Made by a program: the position numbers and the translations under genes | Notes under the pieces: generated by a model | The model's database searches: none | Seen by the model: only the letters and a program-made list of their open reading frames with translations | Told to the model about the DNA's origin: nothing | Shown: piece after piece, positions 30,733-64,000 of the stretch | How the letters are laid out: the number at the start of each line of letters is the position of its first letter | How positions within the stretch are numbered: position 1 is the stretch's first letter | Assembly: GCA_030066075.1 (NCBI GenBank) | Contig: JASJCH010000020.1 | Coordinates: 1 to 64,000 of the forward strand | Length of the DNA stretch: 64,000 nt | Reading direction: 5' to 3' | Source: Woeseiaceae bacterium | Lineage (GTDB): Bacteria > Pseudomonadota > Gammaproteobacteria > Steroidobacterales > Woeseiaceae

Positions 30733-31485
30733 ATGAATAAACAGCTATTGTTAACCGCGGTCACGATGCTGCTTGCGGGTACTGCGCAGGCCCAAGAGCG
30801 CGACGCGACCAGCATCGTCAGGGACGCCGTCAACCACTGGCGTGGCCTGTCTTCCGACGCCGTCATGACGATGGTTATCCATCGTCCGGACTGGGAGCGC
30901 ACGATGACGATGCGCGCCTGGACCAAGGGCGACGATCGCTCGTTGGTGCGCGTGCTGGAGCCGACGAAAGATCGCGGCAACGGCACGCTGACTGACGACA
31001 ACAGCATGTGGTCGTTCTCGCCGAAAGTGAATCGCGTCATCAAGATCCCGTCGTCAATGATGGGGCAGAGCTGGATGGGCTCGGACTTTTCCAACAAGGA
31101 CGTGGCGCGCGCCGACGACATCGTCGACCAGTACGACCACAGAATCCTGGGCGTGGAAGAGGCCGACGGCGTGACCATCTACGAGATCGAGTCGATTCCG
31201 CACGAGGATGCCGCCGTGGTCTGGGGGCGCGAGGTGCTGAGTATCCGTGACGACCACGTCGTGACAACGCACCGCTTCTACGACCAGGACGGCGAACTCG
31301 TGAAAACGCTCACGTCGCTGGAGATTGGCGAGATGGGCGGGCGCACGATTGCGCTGCGCCAGCGCATGAGCAAGGAGGAAACGCCCGAGGAATGGACGGA
31401 AATCGCGGTCGAGTCGGTAGATTACGATATAGACCTGCCCGACAGCCTGTTTACACTTTCTAACTTACGCAATCCCCGAGAGTAG
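30733..31485 (+). CDS. LolA-like outer-membrane lipoprotein-sorting protein
   Basis: The 250-residue protein has a clear signal peptide (ending AGTAQA) and the LolA-like fold pattern of PF17131: repeated strand motifs such as SDAVMTMVIHRPDWERTMTMRAW, MWSFSPKVNRVIKIPSSMMGQSWMGSDFS and YEIESIPHEDA. Such proteins are often encoded with FtsX-type ABC permeases. It heads a five-gene cluster that includes two permeases, an ATPase and an outer-membrane barrel. It is likely a periplasmic carrier for a lipid or lipoprotein. It is not LolA itself, which is shorter and lies elsewhere in most genomes. Confidence 0.82.
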   Translation: MNKQLLLTAVTMLLAGTAQAQERDATSIVRDAVNHWRGLSSDAVMTMVIHRPDWERTMTMRAWTKGDDRSLVRVLEPTKDRGNGTLTDDNSMWSFSPKVNRVIKIPSSMMGQSWMGSDFSNKDVARADDIVDQYDHRILGVEEADGVTIYEIESIPHEDAAVVWGREVLSIRDDHVVTTHRFYDQDGELVKTLTSLEIGEMGGRTIALRQRMSKEETPEEWTEIAVESVDYDIDLPDSLFTLSNLRNPRE

Positions 31486-31489
31486 CCGC

Positions 31490-32719
31490 TTGAACCTCGT
31501 CCTTCGCCTGGCGTGGCGCAACCTGTGGCGGCAGCCGCGCCGCACGTGGCTGACGACCGGGGCGATGGTGTTTTCCAACACGCTGCTCGTGTTCATGATC
31601 TCGCTGCAGTTCGGCATGTACGGGCTCATGATCAACAACACGCTGCAGGCGTACACCGGCCACCTGCAGATCCAGGCGCCGGGTTACATCGACGACCAGA
31701 AAATGCGCCAGACGGTGGCCGACATCCTGCCGCTGGCCGAGCGGCTGCGCGCGGAGTTTCCGGAGCAGAGTATCGCCGCCCGCGCCACCGGCTTCGCGCT
31801 GGTTTCCAGCGCTGACCGCAGCTACGGTGTCGCGGTGGTCGGCGTCGAACCCGGTTACGAGAGCCGCGTCTCGACGCTGCCGGGCCTGGTGTCGTCAGGA
31901 CGTTTCCTCGAGGACAATGATGCCGCCGAGATCGTTATCGGCGCGGCCCTGGCGCGAATCCTGCGCGTTGACGTGGGCGACGAGCTGACGCTACTGGGCA
32001 GTGGTAAGGACGGTTCTTTTGCTGCCGCCGTCGTCATCATCGCCGGAATCTTCGACAGCGGGCTGCCCGATTTCGACCGCAGTTTCACCGAGATTCCGCT
32101 CGGACTGTTCGACGACGTGTTTTACATGAACGGCAGCGGCCACCACGTCGTGATCAACAACGGCGGCATCAGCGGCGTGGCCGATCTCAAGACCCGCGTC
32201 GAGGCGACGGTGCCGCCCGGCGAAGAGCTCGTCGTGCATGACTGGGACGCGCTGCAACCCGGGCTGCAGCAGACCATCAAGGCCGATATCAGCAGCGCGT
32301 TTTTCATGTACGGCATTCTGGTCATCCTCGTGGCGTTCAGCGTCCTCAATACGCAGCTGATGTCGGTGCTGGAGCGCACGCATGAGTTCGGCATTGTGAT
32401 GTCGCTGGGTTTGACGCCGGGCCGGCTGGGCCGGCTGGTTCTGCTCGAAACGGCCATCATGGGGTTCATGGGACTTGTGCTTGGCGCCATCCTCGGCGGA
32501 CTGGTGACCTGGTGGCTGAGCTTCAACGGTTTCGCCTACCCGGGCATGGAAGAGATGGCGTCGAGGTTCAACCTGCCGGCCCGCTTCTACCCGGAGGTCA
32601 CCTTGATCTCCTTGCTGTCGGGCCCGGTGGTGGTATTCCTGTTCACGTTACTCGCCGCGCTCTACCCGGCGCTGCGGCTGCACAAACTGCACCCGGTCGA
32701 AGCGATGAGGGCCGTCTGA
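31490..32719 (+). CDS. ABC transporter permease, FtsX/LolE type (first copy)
   Basis: The 409-residue permease starts at TTG four bases after the LolA-like stop. It has one N-terminal helix preceded by LRLAWRNLWRQPRRTWLTT, a large periplasmic domain (about 45-265) and three C-terminal helices including FVALERT-like MSVLERTHEFGIVMSLGLTP, the conserved FtsX-domain motif. This is the MacB/LolCE topology, which uses mechanotransmission instead of a transmembrane pore. It probably forms a heterodimer with the next gene. Confidence 0.87.
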   Translation: MNLVLRLAWRNLWRQPRRTWLTTGAMVFSNTLLVFMISLQFGMYGLMINNTLQAYTGHLQIQAPGYIDDQKMRQTVADILPLAERLRAEFPEQSIAARATGFALVSSADRSYGVAVVGVEPGYESRVSTLPGLVSSGRFLEDNDAAEIVIGAALARILRVDVGDELTLLGSGKDGSFAAAVVIIAGIFDSGLPDFDRSFTEIPLGLFDDVFYMNGSGHHVVINNGGISGVADLKTRVEATVPPGEELVVHDWDALQPGLQQTIKADISSAFFMYGILVILVAFSVLNTQLMSVLERTHEFGIVMSLGLTPGRLGRLVLLETAIMGFMGLVLGAILGGLVTWWLSFNGFAYPGMEEMASRFNLPARFYPEVTLISLLSGPVVVFLFTLLAALYPALRLHKLHPVEAMRAV

Positions 32720-33948
32720 TGCATATGCTCGCGGTCCTGAGTCGACTGGCCTGGCGCAACCTGTGGCGCAATCATCGCCGCACGCTGATCATGCTGCTTG
32801 CGATCATTCTCGGTACCTGGGCGATGATTTTCATGACGGCGCTGATGCGCGGCATGGTGTCACAAATGGTGGCGGACGGTATCAGCTCGCTGCCGGGACA
32901 CGTGCAGGTGCACCACCCTGACTTCCGCGACGACCCGAGCGTCGCCAACCTGATCAACGTGCCCGATTCGGAGATCGCGGAGCGCTTCAATGCCGCTAAC
33001 TTCAGGCAGTGGGCGAGCCGCGTCCGCGTGCCGGCCGTCATCACGAGCGAGTATGACTCGCGTGGCGTGACCCTGGTCGGTGTCGATCCGGCGCTCGAGG
33101 ATGGCCTGACGTTCGTCGACTATCGTGAGGTGGAGGGACGCTTCCTCGAGTCCGCCGACGATAAGGGCGTCGTCATCGGCCGCAAGCTTGCCGATATTCT
33201 GAATACCGAGGTCGGCAAGCGCATCGTGCTGATGAGCCAGGACCCCGATAACGAAATTGCCGACCGCGGCTTCCGTGTTGTCGGTCTGTTCACCGCCAGC
33301 GTCAAAGCGTTCGAGGAACAGTTCGTGTTTGCTGGCAAAACGACGACGCAGAACATGCTGCGTATTGGCGACCAGGTCTCCGAGATTGCGGTACTCGGCG
33401 ACGACTACCGCGATGTCGAGGCGGAGTTTCAAAAAACGCTGGAGCTGATTAACGATGGCGTAACGGTGCAACGCTGGACTGAGGTCGATCGCTTCCTCGG
33501 CACGATGCTCGGCGTAATGGATGGGTTCGTGCTGGTCTGGATCGTCGTGATCTTCCTGGCGCTGTCCTTCGGGCTCGTCAACACGCTGGTTATGGCGGTG
33601 TTTGAGCGCGTGCGTGAGATTGGCCTGATGCTGGCGCTCGGTATGCGGCCCAAGGACATTCTTGGCCAAATCATCCTCGAGTCGCTGCTGTTGCTCGCGA
33701 TCGGCCTGGCGCTGGGCAGCGCGCTCGCCTGGGCGACCGTGCAGCCTATCCGGGACGGCATCGACCTCTCGATGGTCAGCGAGGGCATGGAAATGATGGG
33801 CGTGTCGAGCGTGCTGGTGCCCGAATTGTTGTTGAGCGACGTGGTCCTCGCCAATGTCGTCGTATTGATTCTCGGTTTCTTTGCGAGCCTGTCGCCGGCA
33901 TGGCGCGCGGCGCAATACGAGCCGATCGAAGCCATAACAAAGGTCTGA
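32719..33948 (+). CDS. ABC transporter permease, FtsX/LolC type (second copy)
   Basis: The 409-residue permease starts at the ATG overlapping the preceding stop by one base; the tracked frame runs in too early. It shows the same order: SRLAWRNLWRNHRRTLIML, a periplasmic domain (about 50-270), and AVFERVREIGLMLALGMRPKD in the C-terminal FtsX domain. With its equal-sized neighbour it makes a LolCE-like heterodimer. Both have the Arg-rich N-terminal RNLWR motif, which indicates an old duplication. Confidence 0.87.
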   Translation: MHMLAVLSRLAWRNLWRNHRRTLIMLLAIILGTWAMIFMTALMRGMVSQMVADGISSLPGHVQVHHPDFRDDPSVANLINVPDSEIAERFNAANFRQWASRVRVPAVITSEYDSRGVTLVGVDPALEDGLTFVDYREVEGRFLESADDKGVVIGRKLADILNTEVGKRIVLMSQDPDNEIADRGFRVVGLFTASVKAFEEQFVFAGKTTTQNMLRIGDQVSEIAVLGDDYRDVEAEFQKTLELINDGVTVQRWTEVDRFLGTMLGVMDGFVLVWIVVIFLALSFGLVNTLVMAVFERVREIGLMLALGMRPKDILGQIILESLLLLAIGLALGSALAWATVQPIRDGIDLSMVSEGMEMMGVSSVLVPELLLSDVVLANVVVLILGFFASLSPAWRAAQYEPIEAITKV

Positions 33949-33950
33949 CC

Positions 33951-34643
33951 ATGACAGCAGTGCGTTGCGTTGATTTGTGCAAAACCTATCGCCAGGGCGA
34001 GGAAGACATCAAGGCCCTCGACCACGTCAGCATCGAGATCGAGGAGGGCGGCTTTGTTTGCCTGTCGGCGCCGTCCGGCGGCGGCAAGACTACGCTTCTC
34101 AATGCGATCGGCGGTCTCGACAAACCCGATAGTGGCGAGGTCTACGTCGCGGAGCGCCGCATCGACAACCTGTCCAAGGGCGAGTTGGCCGAACTTCGCC
34201 TGCGCCAGATCGGCTTCGTATTCCAGGCCTTCAACCTGATCCCGGTGCTGACGGCGCGTGAGAATGTCGAGTTCGTCATGCAGGTGCAGGGCGTGCCGGC
34301 GGCCGAGCGCGGACAAAAAGCGCTGGAGATTCTGGAGGAAGTCGGCCTGAAGGGGCTCGAGGACCGGCGCCCGGCCGACATGTCGGGCGGACAGCAGCAG
34401 CGCGTCGCCGTTGCGCGGGCAATCGTCTCGCGGCCGGCGCTGGTGCTGGCCGACGAGCCCACGGCGAACCTCGACTCGAAAACGTCCGATGGCCTTATGG
34501 AGTTGTTCCGCGAACTCAACGACCATCACAGCACGACCTTTGTTATCGCGACACATGACAAGCGCGTGATGAGCTACGCGAAACGTATCGTACGCATGCT
34601 CGACGGCCGCATCGTCGAGGACATCAGCCAGGATGCGGTGTAG
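33951..34643 (+). CDS. ABC transporter ATP-binding subunit (LolD/MacB type)
   Basis: The 230-residue ATPase starts at the ATG two bases after the permease stop. It has Walker A in APSGGGKTTLLN, slightly divergent from the usual GxSGSGKST. The Q-loop is VFQAFNLIPVLTARENVEF, the signature MSGGQQQRVAVARA and Walker B LVLADEPTANLD. These match the LolD/MacB branch. The 3' end overlaps the following barrel gene by 11 bases. It powers lipid or lipoprotein extraction by the two permeases. Confidence 0.88.
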   Translation: MTAVRCVDLCKTYRQGEEDIKALDHVSIEIEEGGFVCLSAPSGGGKTTLLNAIGGLDKPDSGEVYVAERRIDNLSKGELAELRLRQIGFVFQAFNLIPVLTARENVEFVMQVQGVPAAERGQKALEILEEVGLKGLEDRRPADMSGGQQQRVAVARAIVSRPALVLADEPTANLDSKTSDGLMELFRELNDHHSTTFVIATHDKRVMSYAKRIVRMLDGRIVEDISQDAV

Positions 34644-35760
34644 CTGGATAGCGCTGCTGTTTCTGTTCGCCGCCGCTGCGGGGGCTGAGGACAGTCCTTT
34701 CGAGTTCGACGGCCACACCAAGCTGCGCGCTGTGGGGCAGACCTATCCCGACGACAGCCTGTTGCGCGACCTGGCTGGTTCGTCGTCGCTGGACACGATT
34801 GGCGAGCTGCGGCTGAACCTGGCCGCGAAAAAATACGACTGGTCCTTTCACGCCGATTACCAGGCGCTGGGGCTCTACAGCGAGTTCCTGGCGCTCGGGC
34901 TGCCCAACGACGACCGGCGGCTGTTCGACTTCACCAAGGTCGTTGCCGACGGCTCCGACTATGCGCTAGTACACCGGCTGGACCGTTTCTGGGCGGGATA
35001 CGCGGGCCGCAAGCTCGTCGTGCGCGCCGGGCGCCAGGCCCTGTCCTGGGGGAACGGGCTGTACTTTCATCCGCTGGATCTCGTCAATCCCTTCGACCCT
35101 ACGACGATCGACACCGAGTACAAGACGGGTGACGACATGGTCTACGCGCAGTATCTGCGCGATAACGGCGATGACTTGCAGGCCGCGGTCGTGTTCCGGC
35201 GCGACCCGCTCACCGGGGAGCGGCGGAGCGACGAGGGAACGGTCGCGGTTAAGTACCACGGATTTGCTGGCGAGAACGAGTACGACGTGCTGATCGGTGA
35301 GAACTTTGGCGATACCGTGGTCGGTCTCGGTGCCGTCGGCAGCCTGGGCGGCGCCGTCTGGCGCGGCGACCTCGTGATTACGGACGCCGATGACGAGACA
35401 GAGGTAGAGTTCGTAACCAACGTCAGTTACTCGTGGGTCTGGGCCGAGCGCAATGTCAGCGGCTCCGCGGAGTACTACCGCAGCGGGGAAGACCGCGACT
35501 ACTTCGCAGGCAGCCTGATGATCGAGATGACGCCGCTGTGGACCCTGACGCCGACACTGATCGGCAACTTTGATGACCCGAGTGCATTACTGCAGGTCGT
35601 GACCCAGTACAGCCTCGGCGACAACACGACCTTCCTCGGCAGCCTCAACCTGCCGATCGGCGCTAATGGCACTGAGTACGGTGGGCCCGAAACAGGCGTT
35701 CCGGGGCGCTACCTGTCGTTCGATGTCGGCGTTTTCGCGCAGTTGGCCTGGTATTTCTGA
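34633..35760 (+). CDS. Outer-membrane beta-barrel protein of the Lol-like operon
   Basis: The 375-residue protein has a signal peptide (ending AAAGA) and no lipobox. The mature part alternates hydrophobic and polar residues as in barrel strands (WSFHADYQALGLYSEFLAL, VRAGRQALSWGNGLYFHPL, VEFVTNVSYSWVWAERN). The C-terminus is aromatic (FAQLAWYF), typical of BAM substrates. The segment RQALSWGNGLYFHPLDLVN also resembles DUF1302-type barrels. It overlaps the ATPase by 11 bases, so a functional link with the transporter is likely. Acceptor or channel role is inferred. Confidence 0.77.
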   Translation: MRCSWIALLFLFAAAAGAEDSPFEFDGHTKLRAVGQTYPDDSLLRDLAGSSSLDTIGELRLNLAAKKYDWSFHADYQALGLYSEFLALGLPNDDRRLFDFTKVVADGSDYALVHRLDRFWAGYAGRKLVVRAGRQALSWGNGLYFHPLDLVNPFDPTTIDTEYKTGDDMVYAQYLRDNGDDLQAAVVFRRDPLTGERRSDEGTVAVKYHGFAGENEYDVLIGENFGDTVVGLGAVGSLGGAVWRGDLVITDADDETEVEFVTNVSYSWVWAERNVSGSAEYYRSGEDRDYFAGSLMIEMTPLWTLTPTLIGNFDDPSALLQVVTQYSLGDNTTFLGSLNLPIGANGTEYGGPETGVPGRYLSFDVGVFAQLAWYF

Positions 35761-35830
35761 TCGCGCCCATGGGGCGCTCCTACGGACAGGCTTTGATCGC
35801 GCCCGTGGGGCGCTCCTACGGACGCGCTTT
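35759..35830. repeat. Tandem REP-like doublet (2 x 36 bases) between convergent genes
   Basis: Two adjacent 36-base copies differ at three positions. Each copy contains GCGCCC-N3-GGGCGC, a perfect hairpin, followed by TCCTACGG. The reverse complement reads CCGTAGGAGCGCCCC, like the GTAGGAGCG head of REP elements in gammaproteobacteria. It sits exactly between the barrel and hemerythrin genes and may also terminate transcription in both directions. I did not find further copies by eye. Confidence 0.75.
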
Positions 35831-36393
35831 TACGACGCTGACAGGCTCCTGATATTGCGCAGCAGGTTCTCGAACGAATGTTCGCGTTCGGGGCCGAAGA
35901 CCGGGTCGAGCTGGTCGAAGTTTGAGATGTCGATGAACATGTCTTCTTCGTGCTGGATCAGGTCTTTTGCGCGGCGGAACAGGTCTTCCTCCTCCCAGGC
36001 CATGTGCTTCCTGAGCGTACGCACGTAGGTGGCGGCGTCTTCGACCAGGCGCTCGCGGGTGACCGCGGCTCCGGACGCGACTGCCTCGACGTCGTTGCGC
36101 AGCCTGTCGCCGTTCTCGGCAATCTCGCGGTGCTCCGGGCCGACGCGCTCGAGGCCCTCGCCGAGCTCGGGCTGCTGTGCGCGCATCGCGGCGTACAGAA
36201 CGTCTTCCTTGGGATGGTGCACGGCGTCCGAATAGACCGTCATGTAGCGCATGATGTCGTGGATCAGTTCGTAGTCCGGCCGCTCGCCGTCGCGAATGTG
36301 TTCAATCTGCTGGCTGAGGAGATCGAGCATGATCGCCATGTTGCGGTGGTCCTCACGGAGGTCTCTCAAAAGGTCGGCCAGCAGGATGGTCAT
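35830..36393 (-). CDS. Hemerythrin/HHE cation-binding domain protein
   Basis: The 187-residue all-helical protein has the HHE pattern. LREDHRNMAIMLDLL carries the first His, DIMRYMTVYSDAVHHPKEDVLY the second site and EHREIAENGDRL the third; RTLRKHMAWEEEDLFRRA carries the last His and Glu ligands. This makes a di-iron four-helix bundle used for oxygen or NO sensing or iron handling. No partner kinase or cyclase is fused. The gene has its own unit, bounded by the REP doublet. Confidence 0.85.
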   Translation of the reverse strand: MTILLADLLRDLREDHRNMAIMLDLLSQQIEHIRDGERPDYELIHDIMRYMTVYSDAVHHPKEDVLYAAMRAQQPELGEGLERVGPEHREIAENGDRLRNDVEAVASGAAVTRERLVEDAATYVRTLRKHMAWEEEDLFRRAKDLIQHEEDMFIDISNFDQLDPVFGPEREHSFENLLRNIRSLSAS

Positions 36394-36499
36394 TTTCGTG
36401 CCTCTGTTGTTTTCCCTGGTCTTGGATCAGGGTGCGCGCAGGAAATTCCCGCTTGAATCCGTGATTTCACGTACATACATGCGGCCCCCGTTAATCCGG

Positions 36500-36517
36500 T
36501 TGTAATAAAACCGCAAT
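36500..36517 (+). promoter_or_regulatory. Pho-box-like sequence upstream of the PhoB-like regulator
   Basis: TTGTAATAAAACCGCAAT matches 14 of 18 positions of the E. coli Pho box consensus (CTGTCATAWAWCTGTMAY) that I know. It lies about 70 bases before the regulator start in an AT-rich patch of the 194-base intergenic region, consistent with autoregulation. It also overlaps a small CGGTT-N7-AACCG inverted repeat. The four mismatches leave real doubt. Confidence 0.4.
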
Positions 36518-36587
36518 ATCCACGTAAAAGGAGTGTAAAACGCCGGTGCTTTAGTAGACCGGGTGACCGGATAGCCCAGGATTCGAA

Positions 36588-37280
36588 ATGACATTGGCAT
36601 CTATCCTGCTCGTCGACTCGGATGCTGAGTTGCGGCAGCGGATTGCTCAGGAACTGCGAGAGCTCGGCCATGACGTCGACGAACTGGCTACGGCTGGCTC
36701 GGCCATCGAGGCAGTGCATGATACCTGCCCGGACCTGATGGTCTGCGAATTCGCGCTCCCGGACCTCAGCGGTATCGAGCTGCTCAATGATGTCCGCAGT
36801 AGTGAAAAACTGCGTCACCTGCGCGTATTGATGACTTCGGCGGCTCCCGGATCGGGTGACGTGGTTGCCGCGCTCGAGTCCGGCGCCGACGACTTCGTCG
36901 CTAAGCCCGTGGACTTGCAGGAGTTGACTGCGCGCATTGGTGCTTGTCTCAATCGCCCCGCAAACAATGCGGATGCGGGTCGGGTTAATGCCGGTGGAAT
37001 TGCAATTGACAAGATCGGCCACCGCGTCACGGTCGACGACACATTTGTAACGCTTGCACCTCGCGAATACCGTCTTCTCCTCTTCCTCATGACGCACCAG
37101 GATCGGGTATTTAGCCGCAAGCAGCTGCTCGTGTATGTGTGGGACCGGGACGTATCAGTCGGCCCGCGAACGGTCGATGTGCATATACGCCGCCTGCGCA
37201 GCGTACTCGAACCGTTCGACTATGCAGGTTACCTCCAGACTGTGCGGGGCGCCGGCTACCGGTTTTCGCTGCATACCTGA
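36588..37280 (+). CDS. PhoB-like OmpR-family response regulator with Asp54-to-Glu phosphoacceptor
   Basis: The 230-residue regulator has a receiver domain (about 5-118) and a winged-helix effector (about 130-228). The recognition helix TVDVHIRRLRSVLEP and C-terminal YLQTVRGAGYRFS are nearly those of E. coli PhoB. In the receiver, Asp10 and Asp12 (acidic pair), Thr83 and Lys106 are kept. The phosphoacceptor position reads PDLMVCEFALPDLSG, so Glu54 (codon GAA) replaces Asp. Glu can mimic phospho-Asp, suggesting an always-on or phosphorylation-independent regulator. No histidine kinase gene is adjacent. A poor copy of a Pho box precedes the gene. Confidence 0.85.
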   Translation: MTLASILLVDSDAELRQRIAQELRELGHDVDELATAGSAIEAVHDTCPDLMVCEFALPDLSGIELLNDVRSSEKLRHLRVLMTSAAPGSGDVVAALESGADDFVAKPVDLQELTARIGACLNRPANNADAGRVNAGGIAIDKIGHRVTVDDTFVTLAPREYRLLLFLMTHQDRVFSRKQLLVYVWDRDVSVGPRTVDVHIRRLRSVLEPFDYAGYLQTVRGAGYRFSLHT

Positions 37281-37298
37281 CCGAGCGTCGTAACGTAG

Positions 37299-37316
37299 CC
37301 GTGACAAATCTGTCAC
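37299..37316 (+). promoter_or_regulatory. Putative Pho box upstream of the lipoprotein/TonB receptor pair
   Basis: CCGTGACAAATCTGTCAC matches the E. coli Pho box consensus at 15 of 18 positions, with a perfect second heptamer (CTGTCAC) and spacer (AAAT). It lies 19 bases after the regulator stop and 110 bases before the lipoprotein start. The same bases contain a GTGACA-N4-TGTCAC palindrome, so a dimeric non-PhoB protein is an alternative. No good -10 was found at the expected distance. Confidence 0.5.
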
Positions 37317-37426
37317 ATCCGCTCCACATGCCAGCGCTAGTTTGGCCGCCTCGATGGACCGAGAGAGTCCTACCCGACTGATCGCCGCCGACGGTGCGGC
37401 GGCCATTACACAACCTGGAGAGGAAA

Positions 37427-39136
37427 ATGAACCGTACTCAACTGTTCACCGTTGCTTGTTCGGCGATAGCGCTGGCCGCATGCTCAAGCGGCGACGTCAA
37501 TATCAAGCCCGCCACGACGGTGACGGACAGCAACAACACCACGATCAACAACAGTGGCGGTGGCAACCCCAATCAGAACTGCGCTTCTTTCGTTCGTGCC
37601 GGACAGACCTTGCAGGGTACGGACGACGGCAACGGCAACTGCACCTACGGCTCTGCTTTCGTCGGACCGCAGAACAACCTCGATGTTGATCTGTTCATCC
37701 CGGCTCTGCCAAACGGCGGCGTGCATATCTTCACATCGAGCCTGTTTGTCGGCGAGACATACCGTACACAGGCCGACCTCACAGCCGCAGGAATCATCGA
37801 GGGTGGCGACGGCCCGACGCTGACGATCGAAGCTGGTGCCACGCTCGCCTTCCAGACGAACAGTGACTTCGTCATCATTAACCGCGGCTCGCGCATCCTT
37901 GCTGACGGCAACGCCAACAACCCGATCACGTTCACATCGGTTTCCGACATTAACGGCACGGTCCTGCCGGAAGATGTCCAGCAGTGGGGCGGCATCGTCA
38001 TCAACGGTTTCGGCGTCAGCAACAAGTGCAGCTACGACGGCGTTCGGGGCGAGCCTGGCTTTCAACTGACCCCGGGCACCGAGTGCTCGATCGAGGCGGA
38101 AGGTTCCGTCGGTGACGACGAGTCGCAATACGGCGGCGACAACGACGCCGACAGCTCAGGCATCCTGCGCTACGTGCGCGTCAAGCACACCGGCGCCCAG
38201 GTTGCCAACGGCGACGAGCTGAACGGCATCTCGTTCGGCGGCGTCGGCAGCGGCACGGTTATCGAGAACCTGCAGGTTTATTCGACCTATGACGATGGTG
38301 TTGAGATGTTCGGCGGCAGCGTCGACATCACCAATCTCGTCGCTGTCTACGTTCGCGACGACTCTATCGACATCGACGAAGGTTACAACGGCACGATCAC
38401 GAACGCCCTTGTCATCCAGCAGGAAAATGACGGCGATCACTGCATCGAGGCTGACGGTCTCGGCTCATACTCGGGTCTTGACCAGCCGACGAAGGATGAC
38501 TTTATCGCGCGCGACCTCAACAGTGCCCCGACGATTAACAGACTGACCTGCATCGTCTCGGCGAACGAGGGCGGCACGCACTCCGACGGTTCGGGCTGGC
38601 GCCTGCGCGAGGGCATCCACCCAGTCATCAACGATGCGCTCGTGATCTCCAGTTTCGGTGCCAACGACACGTCATCAGGCGACGATAACTATTGCCTGCG
38701 CATTGACAGTGCCGAAACGCAAGATGCCGCGGTCAATGGCGACCTGCAGCTGAACCAGGTCATCTTTGCCTGCCAGGAGAACTCCCGAGGTAACGCCATC
38801 GGCGGATTCGCCGACGAGCAGGCCTGGGCCGAAAGCGTTGGCAACCAGTTCGCGACTCTCGCCGATGGTGTAGCCACCGACCCGACGGTAGCTGCCGACT
38901 CAGGGCTGCAGCTGCTCGAAGCAAGCGCTCAGAATCCGCCGATTTACTCGATCAGCTGGGCATCCTCTCAGGTTGACGGCCTGGCGCCGACGGGCACGAC
39001 ACAACCATCGACAGGCGACTTCCTGGGAGCGTTGGAAGCGTCGTCCGACTGGGCGGCAGGCTGGACCTACGGCATCTTCGATGGCGTTGATGCCAACGGC
39101 AATGCCACGCGGGGCCAGCCGCTGTGGTTCGAGTAA
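37427..39136 (+). CDS. Large surface lipoprotein, beta-helix-like, partner of a TonB receptor
   Basis: The 569-residue product starts at the ATG after GGAGAGGAAA and has a lipobox (LAAC, Cys19). A low-complexity Asn/Thr/Gly linker (about 20-50) precedes a repetitive beta-rich body with IEGGDGPTLTIEAGATLAFQ, ILADGNANNPITFTSVSD, QQWGGIVINGFGVSN and GILRYVRVKHTGAQ. These match a family common in TonB-receptor-rich bacteria that I know only as uncharacterised. It probably sits on the cell surface and binds or processes a ligand for the receptor encoded directly downstream, like SusD in Bacteroidetes but unrelated in fold. Confidence 0.77.
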   Translation: MNRTQLFTVACSAIALAACSSGDVNIKPATTVTDSNNTTINNSGGGNPNQNCASFVRAGQTLQGTDDGNGNCTYGSAFVGPQNNLDVDLFIPALPNGGVHIFTSSLFVGETYRTQADLTAAGIIEGGDGPTLTIEAGATLAFQTNSDFVIINRGSRILADGNANNPITFTSVSDINGTVLPEDVQQWGGIVINGFGVSNKCSYDGVRGEPGFQLTPGTECSIEAEGSVGDDESQYGGDNDADSSGILRYVRVKHTGAQVANGDELNGISFGGVGSGTVIENLQVYSTYDDGVEMFGGSVDITNLVAVYVRDDSIDIDEGYNGTITNALVIQQENDGDHCIEADGLGSYSGLDQPTKDDFIARDLNSAPTINRLTCIVSANEGGTHSDGSGWRLREGIHPVINDALVISSFGANDTSSGDDNYCLRIDSAETQDAAVNGDLQLNQVIFACQENSRGNAIGGFADEQAWAESVGNQFATLADGVATDPTVAADSGLQLLEASAQNPPIYSISWASSQVDGLAPTGTTQPSTGDFLGALEASSDWAAGWTYGIFDGVDANGNATRGQPLWFE

Positions 39137-39141
39137 TCACT

Positions 39142-41955
39142 GTGGTGTCCAGGAACCGGATTTTGGGGCTGGGCCTGGTTACCGCTCTATCTGGTTGGCA
39201 TTCGACGGCGCATGCGCAGGAAGAGGGTACGAACGTCTCGGCTGACGTTGAAGAAGTCATCGTAACGGGTCGCTTCATCAGTTCCAGCCAGCAGCTGATC
39301 AACGAGCGCATGGACGACGCATTCGCGACCGATCTGCTCGGCGCCGACACGATCAGTCGTCTTGGCGATTCGACGGTTGCGGGTGCTTTGCGGCGAATCC
39401 CGGGGCTCACGCTCGTTCAGGACAAGTACGTTTATATCCGTGGCCTCGGTGAGCGCTACTCGCAGACCACGCTCAACGGCGCCTACATCCCTTCCGTGGA
39501 TCTGACCCGCAACGTTATCCCGCTCAATGTGTTCCCGACCTCGGTCGTGGAATCGCTGCGTGTCCAGAAATCGTACTCGCCGGAGCTGTCGGCGAACTTC
39601 GGCGGCGGAGCTGTAGATATCCGCACCAAGGGCATCCCGGACGGCTTCACGCTCAAGTTTGAGGCCGGTATCGCCTTCAATGACGAGAACCCCAGCGATG
39701 TGCTGACCTACAAGGGCGGGGGTGACGACAGCCTCGGCACCGACGATGGCACGCGCAAGCTGTCGCGCGGACTCATCAACGGTGTCGTCGCGTTCCAGGG
39801 CAATCCGAACGTCAACAACATCAACAGCTTCCTGCATCGCCAGGATCCAACCTCGACGCTGTTCGACGCGCAGACCGTCAACCGCCAGCTCGGCGCGGAG
39901 CTCAATCGCGAGGTTGCGATTCGGGAGACCAGCGCCGACCCGGATTACGATTTGCGCGCAAGTGTTGGCAACACCCATGAGATTGGCGCCGACTGGGACT
40001 TCGGCTGGAATGTCGGCGGCTCCTATGAGACCGATTGGCGCTGGCGCAGGACCAGGACCGCAACCTTCGGCGAGCCCGAGGAGGAGAACGGTGTGCGCGA
40101 GGAGACGACCCGCAGCGTAAACATCACCGGCACGCTCAACCTGGGCCTCAAGTTCGCCGAGGACCACGAGCTCGAGACCACCAGCCTGTTCCTGCGCAAC
40201 ACTGACGACGAAACCGAGGTGTTCGACTTCTTTAACGAGAACAACCGTAAGTCGGACGGCCAGGGCTTCCGTGACTACCGGCTGGAGTTCGAAGAGCGCA
40301 ACATGACGACCCACCAGATCGCGGGCACGCACTACCTCGGCAGCGCCACGCGCGAGTTGCTCGGTGGTATGTCAAGGCTTATTGACTGGTTGCCGGAAGA
40401 AACGTCGATTGAGTGGTTTTACTCCGATTCGACGGCCGAGACGGACATCCCCAACCGCGTAGTCATCAACTCCGAGACGGTCACTGATCCCGTCACGGGC
40501 AGGGTGCTCTCGGATCGCGTGACGCGGCAATCCTCAGCCGCCGAGTATCGCTTCACGGAGCTCGAGGACGAGGTCGAGAACTACGGCTGGAAAGGCACGT
40601 TGCCGATCAGCCTCCGGAACAGCTACCTCGAGGTGTCGGGTGGCTACGATCACGCGCAGAAGGTCCGTACCTACGAGCAGTCCGAATTCAGCCTCGGCTT
40701 CCTGTCGGTCGTGGACCAGTCGGTTCTCGAAGGGCCGCTCGACCAGGTGTTCTCGGACGAGAACCTCTTCGAGCGCTTCCCCGACGATCCGTTGACGCAG
40801 ATCGACGAATCGCTTGCCTATGTTAACGACGTGCAGTTTGATCGCCAGGGTTCGAACACCAACAGCTACCTGGCCGCAACCGTGACCGACTCGATGTGGG
40901 GCAAAGTGGACTGGACGTACAAGGATTCGTGGCGGTTCGCAGTGGGCGCGCGCTGGGAGGACTACCGCCAGGTCGCAGTTGAGTGGAATCCGTGGGGCTT
41001 CTCGGAAGAGAACCCGCAGGTCACGACCGATCCGGCTATCCTCGAAGAGCGCACGTTCACCGAGGACGAATACTATCCGGCCGCGTCGGTTACCTACATG
41101 ACCGACTGGTTGGCGGAAACGTTCCAGCTGCGGCTTGGCTACAGTGAGACTGCGGTACGTCCCGACCTGCGTGAGCTTACCGGATCGAGCTACATCGACC
41201 CGATCACTGGGGACCTCGTTCGCGGTAACCCGGGCGTCGTGCCCTCGAAAGTGGATAACATCGACCTGCGTGCAGAGTGGTTCCTAGGCAACGGCGACAA
41301 CTTCACGATTACGCTGTTCCAGAAGGATATTGAGGATCCGATCGAATTCTTCGAGATCCCCGCCTCGGATACGACCATTGCGCGTGAAATTCTGAACGCC
41401 GATTCGTCGGAGGTTCGTGGCATCGAGATCGAAGGCCTCAAGGAGCTCGCTTTTCTTGGCGGCATCTTCGATACGATGTTTGTGCAGGGAAACCTGACGC
41501 TTCAGGAGACCGAGCTCGTTCCGGGCAATCCGAATGACCCGAATGATTCGGGTACCACTCAGGTGTCGTGTTTCCAAACAGAGACCGAGGGCCAGCAGGT
41601 CAGAGTCGTCAAGAACAAATGTCAGCTGTCGGGCGCGTCCGAGTATGTGGCCAACTTCATGCTCGGATTCGACTCGTACGACTCAAAGCACACAGGGTCC
41701 CTGATCTACAACGTGTTCGGCGAGCGCGTCTTCGCTTTCGGCCGCTTCGGTCCGGATGCGATCGAGCAGCCGTTCAAGTCCCTCGACGCGACGTATTTCT
41801 GGTACCCGACCGATCGATTCACGGTCAAAGCGAAAGCCCAGAACATCCTCGGCGACACAATCGAGATCACGCGTTCCGAGCCGGGACGCAAGATCACGGT
41901 TTTCGAGGAAGACCCGGGCACGACGTATTCCGTGGCATTTTCCTGGGAATTCTGA
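39142..41955 (+). CDS. TonB-dependent outer-membrane receptor
   Basis: The receptor is 937 residues from the GTG chosen at 39142. GTG at 39145 is nearly equivalent, while the tracked 39124 start would overlap the upstream stop. A signal peptide ends at STAHA, then comes the TonB-box-like EEVIVTGRFIS. The plug domain includes GALRRIPGLTLVQDKYVYIRG, RYSQTTLNGAYIPSVD and YSPELSANFGGGAVDIRTKG. The barrel follows to the C-terminal SVAFSWEF. It belongs to the receptors with an R-G-L-G-E-R-Y plug motif. It is coupled to the surface lipoprotein upstream and closed by a strong terminator, so the two form one unit. Confidence 0.87.
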   Translation: MVSRNRILGLGLVTALSGWHSTAHAQEEGTNVSADVEEVIVTGRFISSSQQLINERMDDAFATDLLGADTISRLGDSTVAGALRRIPGLTLVQDKYVYIRGLGERYSQTTLNGAYIPSVDLTRNVIPLNVFPTSVVESLRVQKSYSPELSANFGGGAVDIRTKGIPDGFTLKFEAGIAFNDENPSDVLTYKGGGDDSLGTDDGTRKLSRGLINGVVAFQGNPNVNNINSFLHRQDPTSTLFDAQTVNRQLGAELNREVAIRETSADPDYDLRASVGNTHEIGADWDFGWNVGGSYETDWRWRRTRTATFGEPEEENGVREETTRSVNITGTLNLGLKFAEDHELETTSLFLRNTDDETEVFDFFNENNRKSDGQGFRDYRLEFEERNMTTHQIAGTHYLGSATRELLGGMSRLIDWLPEETSIEWFYSDSTAETDIPNRVVINSETVTDPVTGRVLSDRVTRQSSAAEYRFTELEDEVENYGWKGTLPISLRNSYLEVSGGYDHAQKVRTYEQSEFSLGFLSVVDQSVLEGPLDQVFSDENLFERFPDDPLTQIDESLAYVNDVQFDRQGSNTNSYLAATVTDSMWGKVDWTYKDSWRFAVGARWEDYRQVAVEWNPWGFSEENPQVTTDPAILEERTFTEDEYYPAASVTYMTDWLAETFQLRLGYSETAVRPDLRELTGSSYIDPITGDLVRGNPGVVPSKVDNIDLRAEWFLGNGDNFTITLFQKDIEDPIEFFEIPASDTTIAREILNADSSEVRGIEIEGLKELAFLGGIFDTMFVQGNLTLQETELVPGNPNDPNDSGTTQVSCFQTETEGQQVRVVKNKCQLSGASEYVANFMLGFDSYDSKHTGSLIYNVFGERVFAFGRFGPDAIEQPFKSLDATYFWYPTDRFTVKAKAQNILGDTIEITRSEPGRKITVFEEDPGTTYSVAFSWEF

Positions 41956-63061: not shown

Positions 63062-64000
63062 TTTCGCCTCCCAGGTGGCGGTCGATCGCCAGCGCGGCCA
63101 CCTTGCCGTGCTGCACGGCGCTTACGGTCAGGTCGTCGCCGCCGAGCACGCAATCGCCCCCGGCCCAGACGCCGGGCAGTGAGGTCGCCTGGCCATCGTC
63201 GACGAGAATCTTGCCATGCTCGAGGTCGATACCCTTGAGCTCGCCGGCGAGTTCCCTGTCGGCCAGGCGCTGGCCGATGGCTTTGAAGATCACGTCGGCC
63301 GGCATCATCACTGATTGGCCATTCTTGTCGAACTCGACGGCTTCCACGTGCTCGGCGCCGTGCACGGCTTTGGGATGCAACCAGTGGTGCACGGCCACGC
63401 CGCTGGTTTGCGCGAGCTGCTGCTCGAACTCGGAGGCACTCATGTCTTCGGGGCCGCGCCGGTACACGATGTCCACGTGTTCGGCGCCCAGCCGTTTGGA
63501 TTGCACGGCGATATCGATCGCCGTCATGCCGCCGCCGATTACGATGACGTTACGCCCGACGGGCAGCGTCGACTTGTCCGTCGCCTGCCGGAGTTGTGCG
63601 ATGTAGTCGATGGCGTTCTCGACGCCGGGCAGATCCTCGTTGTCGATCTTGAGTTCGTTGACGAGTGCGAGACCAATGCCGAGGAACACGGCGTCGTAGG
63701 CGTCGCGCAGCGCCGCCAGCGAAAAGTCCTTGCCGAGCGCCACACCGTCCTCGAACTCGATGCCGCCGATCGCAAGGATGTACTCGACCTCTTTCTGGGC
63801 GAAGTCATCGACGGTCTTGTAAGCGGCAATGCCGTATTCGTTCAGGCCGCCGCGCTTCGGGTCGCGGTTGAATACCTTGACGTCGTGACCCAGCATTGCG
63901 AGCCGGTGCGCGCAGGAGAGTCCGGCCGGCCCGCCGCCGACGACAGCCACGCGCTTGCCAGTGGCTGGCGCCCGCTGGAATAGCTGCTTGCCGGCGTCGA
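63054..64000 (-). CDS. preT: NAD(P)-dependent dihydropyrimidine dehydrogenase, subunit PreT (partial)
   Basis: The frame is open to the window edge: upstream of the tracked start it reads DAGKQLFQRAPATGKRVAVVGGG, so the 5' part is outside. The Rossmann motif VAVVGGGPAGLSCAHRLA binds FAD and a second, NVIVIGGGMTAIDIAVQSKRLG, binds NAD(P)H. It ends with GVWAGGDCVLGGDDL, typical of GltD/PreT oxidoreductases. It feeds electrons to PreA. The N-terminal Fe-S region of PreT should lie beyond the window. Confidence 0.92.
   Translation of the reverse strand, partial: DAGKQLFQRAPATGKRVAVVGGGPAGLSCAHRLAMLGHDVKVFNRDPKRGGLNEYGIAAYKTVDDFAQKEVEYILAIGGIEFEDGVALGKDFSLAALRDAYDAVFLGIGLALVNELKIDNEDLPGVENAIDYIAQLRQATDKSTLPVGRNVIVIGGGMTAIDIAVQSKRLGAEHVDIVYRRGPEDMSASEFEQQLAQTSGVAVHHWLHPKAVHGAEHVEAVEFDKNGQSVMMPADVIFKAIGQRLADRELAGELKGIDLEHGKILVDDGQATSLPGVWAGGDCVLGGDDLTVSAVQHGKVAALAIDRHLGGENG

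Follow-up and report, generated by a model that had tools for sequence, protein, structure and literature searches.

The window, a stretch of 64,000 nucleotides from a Woeseiaceae bacterium, encodes an orphan PhoB-like regulator of 230 aa (36588-37280, + strand) that we believe, with moderate confidence and from the evidence of its sequence, to be a phosphorylation-independent, pseudo-receiver paralogue of PhoB which is autoregulated and activates the neighbouring operon for a lipoprotein and a TonB-dependent receptor. In other words, an adjoining surface nutrient-receptor operon is probably controlled by a regulator that works without a kinase.

The open reading frame is intact and, as the initial annotation had proposed, its product is PhoB-like: a REC domain (PF00072) is followed by a Trans_reg_C winged helix (PF00486), both above the Pfam cut-offs, which is the architecture of the OmpR/PhoB family. 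The pseudo-receiver covers residues ~5-122 and the PhoB-type winged helix residues ~135-228, and the recognition helix TVDVHIRRLR is present as described. The top NCBIfam model for the regulator is PhoB (TIGR02154), at 221 bits against an equivalog cut-off of 296 bits, whereas the true PhoB of the same genome scores 329 bits on this model. Nor does the protein have the phosphorylatable receiver of a PhoB equivalog (acidic pair, Asp, T/S and Lys), as the second member of the acidic pair (DD2) is Ser and the phosphoacceptor is Glu. With both DD2 and the phosphoacceptor Asp changed, its sequence places it instead with the pseudo-receivers and the aspartate-less receivers (ALR, in which the Asp is replaced), as these are defined in PMC12632262 and PMC4395418. 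An AlphaFold2 model of the regulator has a mean pLDDT of 87.8, and its predicted DNA-binding domain superimposes on the PhoB/pho-box DNA complex 1gxp with an rmsd of 1.1 A.

Glu54 (codon GAA, 36747-36749, + strand) aligns unambiguously and without gaps with the phosphoacceptor of E. coli PhoB, which is numbered D53 in PDB sequences, and no alignment placed an Asp at this position. The remainder of the active site requires some correction. The acidic pair was thought to be kept as D10 and D12, but E9, D10 and E11 of PhoB correspond to D10, S11 and D12 of the window protein (codons at 36615-36623, + strand), so that Ser stands in place of the second member, the equivalent of E. coli PhoB D10; since DD2 is the residue that binds Mg2+ directly (PMC12632262), the direct Mg2+-binding Asp has been lost. 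Likewise, the switch T/S is S84 and not T83, while K106 is retained. Further changes relative to PhoB are T to S, Y to F and, at the K+2 position, F to V; most orthologues have I, V or L at K+2 and canonical PhoBs have Phe, and residues of the I/V/L type promote the active state of CheY and are over-represented among pseudo-receivers (PMC12632262). Given that the alignment is gap-free and that two relatives carry GAG at the same codon, we rejected misalignment or a sequencing error at GAA as the main reading; a sequencing error keeps some small likelihood, as the genome is incomplete (79.7% complete) and a single genome of this kind shows the Glu.

Orthologues of the regulator, which form their own clade apart from canonical PhoB in the tree, are carried by 18 of the 73 genomes of the same genus, including that of the window; the other 17 are at 59-70% identity, and more distant orthologues were found in the same family (G249, 60% identity) and in family f2 (44-46%). 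DD2 is S, A, P, G or V in all 23 orthologues examined, whereas the 20 canonical PhoBs of the order without exception show Asp here, their pair reading E-D, and have D, T, Y, K and F at the remaining diagnostic positions. At the phosphoacceptor, 20 of the 23 orthologues have Asp; the three with Glu are those of the window (GAA), G249 (GAG) and G112 (GAG). The Glu is therefore not conserved among close relatives, a point that the initial annotation had marked for checking, as 17 of the 18 genus orthologues keep Asp. The two Glu-bearing relatives (L058 and L060) are separate from each other in the tree, and exactly Ala at DD2 with Glu at the phosphoacceptor is the combination seen in G249 (L058). 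As the window protein is nested among proteins that have Asp, G249 branches as the sister of the remaining family clade and the sisters of G112 carry Asp, three separate changes between Asp and Glu are needed, the direction being open for G249 and G112. On this phylogeny the loss of the Mg2+ ligand is old and clade-wide and the D-to-E change in the window lineage is recent. Furthermore, the Asp is absent from 2% of REC-OmpR proteins, and Glu is present in 26% of Asp-less receivers (PMC4395418), rates at which three Glu among 23 proteins would be unlikely (2e-4 in a simple binomial calculation, which takes no account of relatedness).

The receiver has also diverged faster than the rest of the protein. 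Mean pairwise identity in the orphan clade is 64% for the receiver and 78% for the DNA-binding domain, compared with 82% and 83%, respectively, for canonical PhoBs within this genus. An ORF of 145 aa represents the regulator in G032 (L185:2900-3337; contig C122, from 21899); an in-frame loss has removed most of its receiver, with the phosphoacceptor, and it retains the DNA-binding domain, both blocks of repeats described below and the downstream lipoprotein/receptor operon; G089 has a degenerate version of the regulator.

One might argue that Glu54 is functionally neutral, that is, that phosphorylation-independence arose when the Mg2+ ligand was lost and that the phosphoacceptor drifted afterwards. 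The greater age and universality of the DD2 loss in the clade, the loss of the entire site in G032 and the ability of ChxR to bind DNA when its Glu is replaced by Asp or Ala (PMC4395418) all agree with such drift. However, the other 17 genus orthologues all have Asp even though DD2 is lost, and among the 79 columns invariant in those 17 proteins the window differs at D54E alone, which argues for a specific change and not general decay; moreover, a free site should show other residues, whereas Glu is the only replacement and has appeared three times. We consider neutrality an unlikely explanation.

Given that Asp occurs together with K106 and S84 in 17 of the 18 genus orthologues, this residue still has a role across most of the clade, through phosphorylation or structurally, and a structural role of this Asp has been reviewed for GlnR and RamR (PMC12632262). 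The former option leads to a second alternative, to which we give a lower probability than to neutrality: the Asp-bearing orthologues would still be phosphorylated by PhoR or acetyl phosphate, with D12 or DD1 replacing the metal ligand, and only the Glu lineages would be locked on. Most orthologues do keep the active-site Asp, Lys and Ser/Thr, and the Shewanella orphan SsoR is phosphorylatable though it does not need to be. Against this, the direct Mg2+-binding residue is missing in every orthologue, the operon persists in G032 although most of the receiver is gone, and the contig of the window has no kinase gene: as the initial annotation had observed for the adjacent genes, a PhoR-type HMM found no histidine kinase on this 74-kb contig, and its matches were on other contigs only.

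The most constant companion of the regulator is the lipoprotein gene (37427-39136, + strand), which lies downstream of the regulator in all 18 genus orthologues (p = 2e-14, uncorrected for relatedness) and is followed, wherever the contig reaches, by a gene for a TonB-dependent receptor (39124-41955, + strand; TIGR01782-like, below the cut-off). This neighbourhood is absent from the distant groups, G249 and family f2. The lipoprotein is present in 21 of the 73 genus genomes, these being the 18, G032 with its receiver-less regulator, G089 with its degenerate regulator and G086, where the gene is at a contig edge. Four genomes (L144, L150, L157 and L186) have a divergent lipoprotein/TonB-receptor pair, at 35-45% identity, at the same site, a possible case of receptor swapping under one regulator. 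Although the lipoprotein family is strongly conserved, no relatives were found in Pfam, NCBIfam or the PDB; given this, the low confidence of its model (pLDDT 54) and the weakness of its beta-helix matches, we claim no enzyme function, and the modelled fold is possibly a beta-helix. The TonB-dependent receptor had no relatives in the PDB by sequence. On the other side of the regulator (30733-36393) are genes for a LolA-like protein, two FtsX-type permeases, an ABC ATPase, a DUF1302-like outer-membrane protein and a hemerythrin-domain protein, the order of which is conserved at many orthologous loci.

Both the regulator and the operon are preceded by direct repeats. Upstream of the regulator are five half-sites at an exact spacing of 11 bp and a partial sixth (36491-36550, + strand; TTAAT at 36491, GTAAT at 36502, GCAAT at 36513, GTAAA at 36524 and GTAAA at 36535), conserved in the 18 orthologues as the block GTAACaaaaccGcAAcAntagCGTAAAcngcCTGTAAA. 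Upstream of the lipoprotein gene are four half-sites at the same spacing (37290-37327, + strand; GTAAC at 37290, GTGAC at 37301, GTCAC at 37312 and TCCAC at 37323), within the conserved block GTAAcaaatccTTAATnnnccTGTCACannnnTCCACAT; ten bases past the last half-site the window has TAGTTT (37338-37343, + strand), a putative -10 element that reads TAgatT in the orthologues. The two operator blocks, with their 11-bp period, reach 51 and 47 bits against ~15.5 bits for shuffled sequence, a control that does not model relatedness. Such Pho-box-like 11-bp repeats at both promoters are a feature expected of the Pho regulon; they match the GTAAC-type half-site of this lineage rather than the full CTGTCAT consensus of E. 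coli. The promoter of phoB in the same genome has GTAACagaactGTAAT, and since GTAACagnnctGTAAT is present at canonical phoB promoters across the genus, the half-site is common to PhoB and the regulator. The canonical phoB-phoR pair itself, for which the initial annotation had recommended a search, lies on contig C103 with a porin gene, phoU and pst genes alongside (names beyond phoB and phoR were assigned by inspection of translations), and this locus rules out a genome without canonical PhoB-PhoR.

A specific pattern for the regulator-type operator matched 12 of the 396 genomes of the order; among 369 genomes sampled across the class, it matched that of the window only. In ten of the 12 the operator lies before an orthologue of the regulator. 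In the remaining two, which belong to another family, it precedes a related, DD2-less and Asp-bearing regulator immediately upstream of phoB-phoR (L062:7187-7897, which is L192, in G215; L193 in G164); the same operator at these genes connects the group with the phosphate locus and points to an origin by duplication of phoB, the placement of these long branches in the tree being unsure. The lipoprotein-type pattern had one match in its own genome, the known site, and a wider regulon was rejected on this basis. An isolated exact pair of the regulator's half-sites, GTAACn6GTAAT, is found at 63538-63553 on the - strand.

It is very improbable that the Glu makes the regulator inactive or antagonistic to PhoB, a repressor or competitor occupying common Pho-type boxes without activating, since, for all that half-sites are shared with the phoB promoter and that D-to-E by itself often fails to activate receivers, the repeats at the lipoprotein promoter end ten bases before the -10-like element and the D10A/D53E double mutation reportedly activates PhoB. 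Repeats placed just before the -10 element are the layout of PhoB-activated promoters.

Based on the residues, the phylogeny, the gene linkage and the conserved repeats, we propose a model for the activity of the regulator, its DNA binding, its input from PhoB and the nutrient or signal that it serves. First, the clade's ancestor would have lost the Mg2+-ligand Asp (D10S in PhoB numbering), with D54E following later in the window lineage, and a histidine kinase would then be unable to switch the receiver. Since S11 and E54 are the counterparts of the D10A/D53E state of PhoB, the protein would be expected to dimerise and to bind DNA as made. It would then bind the 11-bp Pho-box-type repeats (GTAAC/GTAAT/GTCAC) before its own gene and before the operon, activating the latter and regulating itself. 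Control would lie in how much of the protein is made from a promoter with half-sites that are also found before the genome's phoB, through which phosphorylated PhoB may feed in. Of the natural, kinase-independent member of the Pho regulon that had been suggested, kinase-independence stands as the best reading, in view of the clade-wide DD2 loss, the receiver-less G032 and the faster divergence of the receiver; membership of the Pho regulon is backed only indirectly, by the half-sites in common with the phoB promoter and by the relatives adjacent to phoB.

More speculatively, the PhoB duplicates may record a stepwise conversion from kinase-controlled to constitutive, with loss of the Mg2+ ligand beside phoB-phoR, relocation to the TonB-receptor operon, repeated change of Asp to Glu and deletion of most of the receiver, the regulator becoming the second tier of a feed-forward loop whose level phosphorylated PhoB sets through the common boxes. 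We hold this extension only tentatively. Activation and inactivation are the main open question in a 2025 review of pseudo-receivers, which regards the Glu hypothesis as easy to test (PMC12632262). The clade is a natural test set for it: one regulator occurs in Asp-bearing, Glu-bearing and receiver-less forms, each combined with the same operators and operon. If true, our model links a surface receptor system to the phosphate response.

The closest comparison is with PhoB itself. The regulator shares with the PhoBs of E. coli and of its own genome the REC and winged-helix domains, a near-identical recognition helix, 11-bp direct repeats and GTAAC/GTAAT half-sites; it differs in its Mg2+ ligand and phosphoacceptor, in scoring below the equivalog cut-off and in not lying beside phoR. 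PDB entry 2jb9, matched by sequence, carries D10A and D53E and is presumably the structure of the double mutant from a 2007 study of PhoB mutants, where this mutant is said to be constitutively active. The same two positions are changed alike in the window protein, D10 to a small neutral residue and D53 to Glu, albeit in a natural, diverged paralogue with further changes, and by analogy with 2JB9 it is plausible that Glu54 mimics phospho-Asp. Glu alone often fails to activate PhoB and a second change is needed (PMC4395418); on the sequence comparisons, the clade already had such a change, the DD2 loss, before the Glu.

Pseudo-receiver regulators of the OmpR/PhoB type are already known, for example, ChxR, HP1043 and SsoR, and Glu is the commonest replacement (PMC4395418, PMC12632262, PMC11045786). 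ChxR of Chlamydia has the same architecture, a Glu at the phosphoacceptor and phosphorylation-independent activity (PMC4395418, PMC3960148), but it is not a PhoB paralogue of the Pho-box type and its Glu is dispensable for DNA binding. HP1043 (HsrA) of Helicobacter is likewise an orphan with a degenerate receiver that acts independently of phosphorylation (PMC8345958); in contrast to the window regulator, it is essential, its receiver has decayed differently and the tree in PMC11045786 groups it separately from PhoB. Similarly, SsoR of Shewanella is an orphan relative of PhoB, linked to uptake genes and controlled by its own abundance (PMC11045786), yet it keeps the phosphorylation pocket and Asp52, is under the control of Fur and is associated with siderophore genes. 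What the window regulator and its relatives add to these is a graded natural series of receivers, together with the match to an engineered PhoB.
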